A stretch of DNA of 64,000 bases from Cloacibacterium rupense. Lineage in GTDB: Bacteria > Bacteroidota > Bacteroidia > Flavobacteriales > Weeksellaceae. The notes under the pieces are model-generated. The model was not told the DNA's origin. It worked only from the letters and a program-made list of their open reading frames with translations, and ran no database searches. Where the stretch lies: assembly GCF_014645495.1 (NCBI RefSeq), contig NZ_BMLV01000004.1:62001-126000 (forward strand), given 5' to 3'. Shown here in pieces: positions 51,323 through 55,645 of the stretch. The position numbers were made by a program, and so were the translations under genes. Position 1 is the stretch's first letter. Every line of letters starts with the position of its first letter.

Positions 51323-51353
51323 AAACTCCCGAAATTTTTCGGGAGTTTTTTAT
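51323..51353. terminator. Terminator after pnp, identical to the one at 55652
   Basis: AAACTCCCGAAA and TTTCGGGAGTTT form a perfect 12-bp stem with a TT loop and a TTTTTT tail. It works on both strands, for pnp and for the converging nucleotidyltransferase operon. The same 31 bases recur in the same orientation at 55652-55682. Confidence 0.8.
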
Positions 51354-52411
51354 TGGTATAGACTGTTTCGAATATTTAACAGAATTTTAGTGGTCTTTTC
51401 TGAATTAGGAAAATCAGGAAGTTTTGAAATAGAATAGTAATATTCTATTAATTTTATAAGGCTTTCTGCTTTTTTTATCACAGCTTCATAAGACCAATTT
51501 CCAGCCTTAATATCGATTAATTCATCACGATTTTCCACACGAACCTGCATAGTATTGTTTTTGAAGATACTTTCGCAAGATTGCAGTAATCTAATGGTAT
51601 GCATCATATTCTTACTGTCGTAGTTTTGACCGTGCTTTTGGTTTACATTGTAGCGTTCCTCATTACGTTCTTCCACCCATTTCCAATATTCGCGGTAAGT
51701 TTTACAGTAATTAGAATATGAATCTAAATTACAGTATAAATAAGCTTCCATTTTTTCTCCTTTCGGGATGGAGGAATGAGAAACTTGGTTGGCATCTTCG
51801 TTTTGCAAAATACCTTTATAGCCAAAAGTATCTGTTTCATCATAAAAAAGAGCAAACATACCTTTGGTATTTGGAATACTAACTAAGCCACACTTTTCCT
51901 GAATTTTTTTGGTTTTTACTAACCATTCTTTTGCAGAAACAGAGCCATAATCACTAAGGATGAAACAAAAATCGAGCAGTGATTTTCGTTCTTTTTCTAC
52001 TGGATTTAAGATTTTCTTGTTCAGTCCTTTTGCTTTTTTGATTTGTGAAATAGCATATCCTGCAAAAGTATCTTTGCATAATTTGGAAAGAAAATCTTCG
52101 GGATTTAATAAATCCATCAAAGGATTTTTGTGCAAAATGCAATCCTCTGGAGTCGCTAAAATTTCTAAAATATTAGGATTGTTTTTTTGTAACAATTCTA
52201 CAAATCGCCCAATTTCATAATACACAATGTCATTGGTTTCATTGGCTATTTGAGGAATATAATTCAATCCAAAAAATTCATTTTTTGGCAAAAAATATAC
52301 TCCTTTTATATCGGTATCCGAAGTTTCTGTAGCCAAACCAAAAGACTTGCTTCCCGCAATAGCTTCGAAGAGGATGAGATTATTTTGTTTTAAAAATTCT
52401 ATATTTAACAT
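51350..52411 (-). CDS. RlaP-like nucleotidyltransferase (second gene of the pair)
   Basis: A 353-residue protein of the DNA polymerase beta nucleotidyltransferase superfamily, PF10127 (RlaP) type. The active-site start is FEAIAGSKSFGLATETSDTD (residues 15-34), with the G-S helix cap and the metal-binding pair Asp32/Asp34. Helical regions follow (EIGRFVELLQKNNPNILEIL, MHTIRLLQSCESIF). RlaP proteins are encoded next to RtcB-type RNA ligases and are thought to modify RNA ends during repair. It starts 2 bases after the preceding nucleotidyltransferase gene and is the last gene of the rtcB operon. Confidence 0.82.
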   Translation of the reverse strand: MLNIEFLKQNNLILFEAIAGSKSFGLATETSDTDIKGVYFLPKNEFFGLNYIPQIANETNDIVYYEIGRFVELLQKNNPNILEILATPEDCILHKNPLMDLLNPEDFLSKLCKDTFAGYAISQIKKAKGLNKKILNPVEKERKSLLDFCFILSDYGSVSAKEWLVKTKKIQEKCGLVSIPNTKGMFALFYDETDTFGYKGILQNEDANQVSHSSIPKGEKMEAYLYCNLDSYSNYCKTYREYWKWVEERNEERYNVNQKHGQNYDSKNMMHTIRLLQSCESIFKNNTMQVRVENRDELIDIKAGNWSYEAVIKKAESLIKLIEYYYSISKLPDFPNSEKTTKILLNIRNSLYQ

Positions 52412-52413
52412 TT

Positions 52414-53163
52414 CTATAATTTTAATATCTCTAAAAAAACTTTTTCTGCTTCCTTTTTGTTAAAATTTCCCGATTGTAAAGTTTTAGCTACTTCAGAGAG
52501 TTTTTCGATTTCTGATTTCAAATAATCAAAAAGTTCCCAATCTTGAGTATGATGATACTTTTCACCTTTTTCAGATTTTAAATTTAATAAAAAGTAAATT
52601 TTATTTAAAATATTTTTTGGTAGCAAATCTAGCATTTCGTGAAATATCACTGGTGGAAAAGTACCTTTTTCAACTACCCATTTTGAAGCTAAAGTTGTTC
52701 TCATACAATAGAAAATATCTTTTAGTTTAACTTCTTCTTTGTTACAAGCTTCCAAGTATTTTTTGCTCATGCTCAAATAATGATAAACCACAGAAACAGG
52801 CGAAAAAGCTAGTTCAGCCAAAGGTTTCATTAATTCTAAAAATTTGTCGTTTTTCACATAGAAAATATGAGAATACAAGTGCTCTAGATTCGGAACATTC
52901 GATTTGTTGAGTAAATGAAAAACTTTTTTCAAATCCCAACCAGAACCGTCCAAATCATCTTCGGTCATAAATTCTATCGTATCACGTTTTTCCCAAGGCG
53001 AAAGATACCAATCTATAGGATGTTTGTAGATAAATCGTATATCATAATCACTGTCTGGAGAAGCAAATCCCCAAGAACGACTCCCAGATTCTATCGCCAA
53101 AAGTATCTCTATCTTCTTCTCTTTTTCTAGAGTTTTTAGTTGTTCTACTATTTTTGTTTTCAT
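52414..53163 (-). CDS. RlaP-like nucleotidyltransferase (first gene of the pair)
   Basis: A 249-residue nucleotidyltransferase from the start at 53163 (MKTKIVEQLKTLEKEKKIEI), 7 bases after the rtcB-type stop codon. Longer in-frame starts would lie inside the ligase gene. The motif IESGSRSWGFASPDSDYDIR (25-43) has Gly27-Ser28 and the metal ligands Asp39/Asp41. The region after it differs strongly from the second nucleotidyltransferase (for example FYCMRTTLASKWVVEKGTFP), so the two are old paralogs, not a recent duplication. They may act on different RNA ends or form a heteromer; both ideas are inference. Confidence 0.82.
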   Translation of the reverse strand: MKTKIVEQLKTLEKEKKIEILLAIESGSRSWGFASPDSDYDIRFIYKHPIDWYLSPWEKRDTIEFMTEDDLDGSGWDLKKVFHLLNKSNVPNLEHLYSHIFYVKNDKFLELMKPLAELAFSPVSVVYHYLSMSKKYLEACNKEEVKLKDIFYCMRTTLASKWVVEKGTFPPVIFHEMLDLLPKNILNKIYFLLNLKSEKGEKYHHTQDWELFDYLKSEIEKLSEVAKTLQSGNFNKKEAEKVFLEILKL

Positions 53164-53170
53164 TGTTTCA

Positions 53171-54547: not shown

Positions 54548-54585
54548 TTGTTTTTCTATTTTGATAAAGCAAAGTAAAAAATCAA

Positions 54586-54605
54586 TTGCGCAATAATTTT
54601 GCGCA
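54586..54605. promoter_or_regulatory. Paired TGCGCA sites between rtcB and the WYL gene
   Basis: TTGCGCAA (54586-54593, perfect palindrome) and TTTGCGCA (54598-54605) place two TGCGCA cores 13 bases apart in the 96-base divergent intergenic region. The second site contains TTTG (54598-54601), which lies 21 bases before TATTTTTA (54623-54630), a possible promoter of the WYL gene. The sites also lie behind TTACTTTG (minus strand, 54570-54577), a possible rtcB -7 box. They are good candidates for the binding sites of the WYL regulator. Confidence 0.4.
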
Positions 54606-54643
54606 GTTAAATTATTTTTTAATATTTTTAGAAAAAATTAAAA

Positions 54644-55645
54644 ATGGCTCTCAATAAAAACGCTTTAATACGATACAACACTATTGATAAATGTCTTAGA
54701 AACAGAAATAAACGTTGGACTTTAGAAGACTTAATAGATGCTTGTTCTGATGCTTTATATGAATATGAAGGCAAAGATTGTTTGGTAAGTAAAAGAACAG
54801 TACAGCTAGATTTACAAAATATGCGCAGCGAAAAATTAGGATATGATGCACCAATTGAAGTTTTTCAAAAAAAATATTATCGATATTCTGACCCTAATTT
54901 TAGTATAAAAAATATCCCAGTAAATGATAGTGATATAAAAGCGATGAATGATGCCGTGCAGATTCTAAAACAATTTAAAGATTTTTCTATGTTCAAGGAA
55001 ATGAATGGTGTGATTCAAAAACTAGAAGATTCTATTTATTCTACTCAGAAAAAAGCCATCATTCATTTAGATAAAAATGAACAACTAAAAGGTTTAGAGC
55101 ATATTGATTTTTTATACCAATCTATTCTTAATAAAAAAGTACTAAAACTGTTTTATCAGTCTTTTAAAGCAAGAGAACCAAAGGAATATGTGGTTCACCC
55201 GCAACTATTGAAAGAATATAATAATCGTTGGTTTCTGATTTGTTGGCACAAAAATAAATTTTGGAATTTTGCTTTGGATAGAATTGAAAAAATGGAGAAA
55301 ACAAAAGAGGTGTACATAGATAAAAACATAGATGCTGATTTGTTTTTTAAAGATGTAATAGGAGTTACGGTTTCAGAAAATCTGAGACCGAATACTGTTA
55401 TTTTCAAAATCGATGCAGAAAATGTTCCTTATGTAAAAACAAAACCACTGCACCACACTCAAGAAATGCTTTCAAAGGAAAATGGAGAATGTATTTTTAA
55501 AATTGAGGTTCAACTTAATTTTGAATTAGAAAGAATTTTACTAGGCTTTGGGGAAAGCATTACGGTGCTAGCTCCCAAAAAGTTAAAAGAAAGGATAGAG
55601 AAAAAATTAAAAAAAGCTTTAGAAAATTATAAACAAAATCCATAA
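54644..55645 (+). CDS. WYL-domain transcriptional regulator
   Basis: A 333-residue regulator. The N-terminal winged helix-turn-helix is around residues 10-75 (NTIDKCLRNRNKRWTLEDLI, then VSKRTVQLDLQNMRSE). A WYL domain follows (about 150-225; KVLKLFYQSFKAREPKEYVV, then KEYNNRWFLICWHKNKFWNF), then a C-terminal extension (ILLGFGESITVLAPKKLKER). WYL proteins sense nucleic acids or nucleotides and often control defence or repair genes. It is divergent from rtcB across 96 bases, so it probably controls the RNA-repair operon and itself. It replaces the sigma54-type RtcR activator found with E. coli rtcB. Confidence 0.88.
   Translation: MALNKNALIRYNTIDKCLRNRNKRWTLEDLIDACSDALYEYEGKDCLVSKRTVQLDLQNMRSEKLGYDAPIEVFQKKYYRYSDPNFSIKNIPVNDSDIKAMNDAVQILKQFKDFSMFKEMNGVIQKLEDSIYSTQKKAIIHLDKNEQLKGLEHIDFLYQSILNKKVLKLFYQSFKAREPKEYVVHPQLLKEYNNRWFLICWHKNKFWNFALDRIEKMEKTKEVYIDKNIDADLFFKDVIGVTVSENLRPNTVIFKIDAENVPYVKTKPLHHTQEMLSKENGECIFKIEVQLNFELERILLGFGESITVLAPKKLKERIEKKLKKALENYKQNP

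Follow-up and report, generated by a model that had tools for sequence, protein, structure and literature searches.

What does an RNA ligase gain from two adjacent, different nucleotidyltransferases and a divergently transcribed regulator? This question is raised by a four-gene locus of Cloacibacterium rupense that encodes an RtcB-type ligase, two RlaP-type nucleotidyltransferases, here called NT1 and NT2, and a WYL-domain protein (Table 1). It lies in a 64-kb stretch of the genome that is referred to below as the window; coordinates are positions in it unless another locus is named. We consider it likely that the locus is a WYL-controlled, inducible RNA-repair operon in which the two RlaP enzymes prepare RNA ends for RtcB. 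A preliminary description of the sequence had proposed a stress-induced RNA-repair system, perhaps directed against tRNA-cutting toxins, and the part of that proposal that we find likely is WYL-regulated, inducible repair, based on an operator shared among loci, RNA-repair partners and co-occurrence with RtcB.

The open reading frames match exactly the coordinates and spacings first reported for the four genes, including the 96 bases between the divergent WYL and rtcB starts. The ligase matches the RtcB profile (PF01139, E = 1.1e-33), but no curated RtcB-like NCBIfam model matched it above cut-off, and it is therefore a divergent member of the family, with orthologues of ∼73% identity in several genera. 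Asp127, Cys130, His203, His221 and the nucleophile His363 align with the Pyrococcus RtcB structures, and His305 (in an EHN motif) was taken by eye as the remaining metal ligand. The metal-binding Asp, Cys and His residues and the guanylated His are all retained, as initially described, and by these residues the enzyme appears catalytically intact although divergent. It is predicted to join 3′-phosphate and 5′-hydroxyl RNA ends in a GTP/Mn-dependent reaction. As the preliminary description had noted from the locus, neither archease (PF01951) nor RtcA (PF01137) accompanies the ligase; a profile search found neither in the whole genome, so that the RtcA or archease of an Rtc operon is missing. 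A second, canonical RtcB is encoded elsewhere in this genome beside a GGQ-motif protein (L067 5617-7685, contig 3), an arrangement that resembles the RtcB-PrfH system.

Both nucleotidyltransferases match the RlaP family PF10127 above its curated cut-off of 23 bits: NT1 with 216.9 bits over residues 1–243 of 249, and NT2 with 74.7 bits in its N-terminal catalytic part alone (residues 11–126). They had been described as two different RlaP-like enzymes of the polymerase-β fold that might yet prove unrelated to RlaP; they did not. The active site comprises Gly27-Ser28, Asp39, Asp41 and Asp77 in NT1, and Gly20-Ser21, Asp32, Asp34 and Glu66 in NT2. In 25 (NT1) and 33 (NT2) diverse homologues, the GS motif and the DxD pair vary little or not at all; the third acid is invariant in NT2 (Glu66) and nearly invariant in NT1, where Asp77 is its presumed equivalent. 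The AlphaFold model of NT1 (pLDDT 95.4) is a minimal nucleotidyltransferase fold that resembles 3c18, HalB and kanamycin nucleotidyltransferase. In the model of NT2 (pLDDT 91.7), the N-terminus weakly matches kanamycin nucleotidyltransferase and the C-terminal helical domain has no solved relative. Searches of the PDB with either sequence returned nothing meaningful. NT1 and NT2 are best explained as two anciently diverged, non-redundant RlaP enzymes. Both are predicted to add nucleotides to RNA ends, an activity that is likewise only predicted for RlaP in PMC7824862.

Table 1. Features of the locus in the window, followed by corresponding features of related loci (L numbers).
Feature	Position	Strand	Remarks
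rtcB, divergent 3′-phosphate RNA ligase	54547-53171	-	458 aa; PF01139 match
NT1, full-length RlaP nucleotidyltransferase	53163-52414	-	249 aa; starts 7 bases past the rtcB stop
NT2, second, longer RlaP-type nucleotidyltransferase	52411-51350	-	353 aa; 2 bases past NT1
WYL/WCX transcriptional regulator	54644-55645	+	333 aa; divergent from rtcB
Probable WYL operator, inverted repeat TGCGCAA-N5-TTGCGCA	54587-54605		halfway between the two divergent starts
Terminator-like hairpin 3′ of NT2, common to the convergent pnp gene	51323-51348	-	end of the cassette
Terminator-like hairpin 3′ of the WYL gene	55647-55682	+	
tRNA-like RNA, examples	L124 3913-4013; L125 1594-1707; L147 16530-16642; L066 7727-7828; L106 10907-11041
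PADLOC cargo, named systems	NT1-NT2 gap		Gabija GajA+GajB, Olokun OloA+OloB, IetA+IetS
PADLOC cargo, reverse transcriptases	NT1-NT2 gap		Drt2-type and UG9-type, with partners
PADLOC cargo, others	NT1-NT2 gap		HamB-like helicase, PDC-M62A+B, PDC-S60, PDC-M28
Example cargo loci (Gabija, Olokun, IetAS, UG9-type reverse transcriptase set)	L087 10180-14504; L175 5492-9093; L138 5579-9045; L121 9441-14501		mostly co-directional

The regulator has both WYL and WCX domains (PF13280, 5.8e-12; PF25583, 4.9e-13), in agreement with its first annotation. The inverted repeat beside it lies 38 bp from the start of the WYL gene and 39 bp from that of rtcB. It has 7-bp arms and a 5-bp spacer, is conserved across genera, and agrees in spacer length with the inverted-repeat operators of BrxR-family WYL repressors (PMC9122601). 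The locus thus shares with BrxR a WYL-WCX protein beside defence or nucleic-acid genes and such a repeat near the promoter. The repeat is the sole perfect copy in the 3.17-Mb genome, which holds six other sites with two mismatches. Allowing up to two mismatches, 191 copies were found in 2.70 Mb of related loci, compared to 2 in shuffled sequence of 40 loci. Nearly all (174 of 191) lie upstream of cassette genes, among them rtcB (79), NT1 (48), the gene on the other side of the rtcB intergenic region (18), TROVE (11) and WYL (8), and the repeat is also found at canonical RtcB. A search for its strict form was positive in 18 of 24 genomes and negative in both searched congeners that lack this rtcB; a reversed-pattern control gave no matches in the same search. 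The repeat is probably the WYL operator, and we infer that the WYL protein binds it.

The arrangement is not peculiar to this strain, the outcome that the preliminary description had named as fatal to it. Comparisons of NT1 and NT2 were made over 116 loci in which both are intact; NT1 precedes NT2 in these 116, and the pairwise identities of the two proteins correlate closely (r = 0.966). NT1-NT2 is an ancient, conserved pair and forms the stable core of the cassette. An RtcB/RlaP/RlaP/WYL unit recurs across genera, although the set of four as found here is one arrangement among several: NT1-NT2 may instead accompany a canonical RtcB, have RtcB encoded at another place in the genome, or be interrupted by cargo genes. 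Two RtcB lineages join it. The window type is adjacent to it in Chryseobacterium, Epilithonimonas and related genera, as in the window, and the canonical type (∼30% identical) lies downstream of it, with a WYL gene too, in Empedobacter, Algoriella, Chishuiella, Myroides and Taibaiella, several of which add an SPFH/Band-7 gene. Among 396 genomes of the phylum, RtcB is encoded in 25 of 26 with NT2, compared to 148 of 370 without (Fisher p = 6e-9, a guide only because the sample is phylogenetically structured). The association with an RNA ligase expected of RlaP is therefore seen both in the window, where the genes are adjacent, and across genomes.

Within the family, 185 of 323 genomes encode NT2, mostly Chryseobacterium, and 9 of 33 genera are positive; in the window's own genus it occurs in this genome alone (1 of 7). 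The pair occurs in Bacteroidetes and Proteobacteria, including Snodgrassella (L040). NT2-like proteins also occur in 252 phage records, and in the viral contigs that were examined NT2 mostly lacks an NT1 partner. NT1-NT2 pairs were seen at the ends of proviral contigs (L210-L226) that are apparently proteobacterial; a Proteus mirabilis relative was found. Transfer of the window copy by a mobile element was considered and rejected, as nothing near-identical to NT2 was found on plasmids or in phages.

The relatives show what else the cassette can hold. In Chryseobacterium and Flavobacterium the space between NT1 and NT2 ranges from an overlap to 10.3 kb; over the 116 loci it is at most 60 bp in 26 and exceeds 2 kb in 49. 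This slot holds exchangeable cargo from 59 gene families. RNA-repair cargo comprises Thg1 (15 loci), a P-loop, polynucleotide-kinase-like kinase (11 loci, always with Thg1) and TROVE (11 loci), and one or another of these lies inside the gap in 21 of the 116 loci; together with SPFH, Thg1, the kinase and Ro60/TROVE are the partners of the cassette in relatives. R2K ATP-grasp proteins (38 loci) and Sir2 proteins also recur there. PADLOC recognised defence systems in the gap of 18 loci, or 24 if weaker Ppl-like ATPases are counted (Table 1), and a PrrC-related PDC-S06 ATPase occupies the gap in L030, one further locus. Species with ∼95% identical NT1 and NT2 hold different cargo, so that cargo turns over faster than its bookends. 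An ATPase pair (∼413 and ∼750 aa) without a PADLOC match recurs in the gap at L088, L113, L128 and L143 and is a candidate new defence system. Gap genes that belong to no known family are candidates as well.

A sister species (L066) carries a different module at the chromosomal site of the window cassette. Its pnp, rtcB-WYL and downstream synteny are those of the window, and rtcB-tRNA-like-c8 (L066 5775-9234) stands in place of rtcB-NT1-NT2 (51350-54547); homology ends with the rtcB stop codon on one side and with the pnp terminator on the other (break at 51355). The tRNA-like RNA, 100–135 nt long, keeps the acceptor, D and T arms of a tRNA, with compensatory changes in the acceptor stem, and a conserved hairpin replaces the anticodon arm. 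A pattern search placed it between rtcB and c8 in 32 loci, and between an operator-like repeat and TROVE in several more. The best matches of the tRNA-like model in the window's genome are ordinary 75-nt tRNAs, and we therefore claim no copy there; a tRNA-like or Y RNA beside the ligase or a scaffold protein is thus a feature of relatives, absent from the window. No structured RNA reached gathering level in the window except an S15-Flavobacteria ribosomal protein leader (Rfam RF03161, 48586-48633) upstream of a small S15-like ORF, with only sub-threshold chance matches near the cassette. No Pfam or PDB relative was found for c8, a large protein (for example, L048 9102-10892). Another large protein, c44 (L037 2826-5054), has only a weak match to a RING-like zinc motif. 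Both are linked to RtcB or NT1-NT2 and to the tRNA-like RNA, and are possible RNA scaffolds. The abstract of a 2016 review by Burroughs and Aravind is said to mention a tRNA-like molecule with SPFH modules, so this RNA class may be partly known.

These features suggest how the locus would operate. In unstressed cells, the WYL protein would occupy the repeat that separates its gene from rtcB and hold both promoters at a low level. A ligand produced by RNA damage, possibly fragments of RNA or nucleotides that end in a cyclic phosphate, would relieve this repression, and rtcB, NT1 and NT2 would be transcribed as one unit. NT1 and NT2, presumably dividing the labour, would restore or tag nucleotides at RNA ends so that RtcB, in sealing 3′-phosphate (or 2′,3′-cyclic phosphate) to 5′-hydroxyl ends, would yield a working molecule; tRNA is the likeliest substrate. 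In relatives, the same operator would also drive a tRNA-like RNA with TROVE/Ro60, and the gap accommodates repair genes or exchangeable defence systems. Since the gap houses such genes, repair is probably deployed with, and perhaps serves to survive, RNA-damaging anti-phage responses. A more tentative extension, which we regard as possible but would not favour outright, is that NT1/NT2 and RtcB form a dedicated repair chassis for plug-in anti-phage systems, so that defence effectors and the enzymes that mend the RNA damage they cause would be co-switched by one WYL sensor, the window being an empty chassis.

Several observations weigh against an inducible repair operon. The window copy has neither cargo nor tRNA-like RNA nor TROVE; one NT2-positive genome (G501) has no detected RtcB, and some Flavobacterium loci have none in the neighbourhood. 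The repeat partly covers the expected promoter position, and activation instead of repression is therefore possible. NT1 and NT2 resemble solved nucleotidyltransferases at the level of the fold only, and the structural matches of NT1 include small-molecule transferases and the oligodeoxyadenylate-making HalB; an RNA substrate thus stays a prediction.

The locus could instead be an ordinary defence-gene hotspot, in which conserved chromosomal genes tolerate insertions and the cargo is functionally unlinked to RNA repair. The three genes that follow NT2 are at least as diverse in family as those of the gap, and the case for a cargo slot therefore rests on co-direction, coupling and defence content. 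Such hotspots are common in bacteria, and the idea that PADLOC matches are confined to the gap had to be rejected, as the flanks hold some too. However, among family representatives of at least 250 aa and at a match threshold of 1e-20, PADLOC matched 19 of 36 gap families and at most ∼12 of 92 flank families (p about 1e-5; the flank figure is an upper estimate from a tally). Of the gap genes with 120 aa or more, 217 are co-directional and 10 are not, whereas strands are mixed outside the gap, and in 57 of 79 loci no more than 30 bp separate the last cargo stop from NT2. RNA-repair genes occupy the same slot. All this shows shared transcription, not shared function. We judge a hotspot unlikely, if still a serious competitor.

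NT1 and NT2 could instead be signalling or regulatory transferases, AMPylating like MntA or oligonucleotide-making like HalB, that restrain the defence cargo, with RtcB a mere neighbour. They do bookend such cargo, often a few bases from NT2, NT1 is similar to HalB in fold and, weakly, to the MntA antitoxin in profile, and cargo-free pairs could be relics. Yet most loci outside Chryseobacterium and Flavobacterium have the pair without cargo, and the cargo is unrelated between loci, which makes one dedicated partner unlikely; the strong co-occurrence with RtcB and the repeat shared with RNA-repair partners also argue for repair. We regard a signalling role as distinctly improbable. Routine tRNA or mRNA maturation would suit the presence of the cassette in most Chryseobacterium genomes examined, where it is vertically stable, but is very improbable given its patchiness elsewhere, the other module at the same site in the sister species, and a WYL regulator with a conserved repeat, which implies conditional expression.

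The locus is of wider interest. The role of RlaP is predicted, with none demonstrated in the accessible literature, and what bacterial RtcB systems respond to, and to what end, are live questions; with a minimal set of four parts and a probable operator that can be seen in the sequence, the locus makes induction and substrate directly testable. The cargo slot of its relatives is a physical link between RNA repair and numerous unrelated defence systems, and offers a means of finding new ones. None of rtcB, NT1 and NT2 is a defence gene by PADLOC, so that the window, taken by itself, would seem unremarkable.

Among the closest known systems are the RtcB-RlaP systems of Burroughs and Aravind (2016), as related in PMC6514570 and PMC7824862. 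According to these accounts, they combine RtcB with a nucleotidyltransferase of PF10127, whose predicted task is to replace nucleotides that have been lost, and with the TROVE and SPFH/Band-7 scaffold proteins found here in relatives; going by the same accounts, the window differs in its two distinct tandem RlaP paralogues and probable WYL control with a site, and its relatives in the exchangeable slot between the paralogues. The rtcR-rtcBA systems of E. coli and Salmonella, with Ro60/Rsr and Y RNA (PMC7790460), likewise place RtcB under a dedicated ligand-sensing regulator and share Ro60 and a tRNA-like RNA with relatives of the window locus. In contrast, the window has WYL and two nucleotidyltransferases instead of RtcA and a sigma-54 CARF activator. 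The RtcB-PrfH (RFH) systems (PMC6514570) are also centred on RtcB, and RFH is sometimes accompanied by a second polymerase-β enzyme, but no PrfH is encoded at the window cassette. BrxR/CapW repressors (PMC9122601, PMC9122588) similarly lie beside nucleic-acid or defence genes with a 5-bp-spacer inverted repeat upstream; here, the main putative target is an RNA-repair operon. A parallel to the RlaP enzymes of jumbo phages (PMC7824862) lies in the NT2-like proteins of phage records, although NT2 of the viral contigs examined is mostly unpaired, in contrast to NT1-NT2 of the window. No description of the NT1-cargo-NT2 arrangement was found in the accessible literature, the 2016 RtcB-RlaP review lying outside that search. 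Thus, the RtcB-RlaP repair class is already known, and the tandem RlaP pair with a repeat-defined regulon and an exchangeable defence slot is, as far as the accessible literature goes, apparently an undescribed modular variant, of which the window presents the minimal form.

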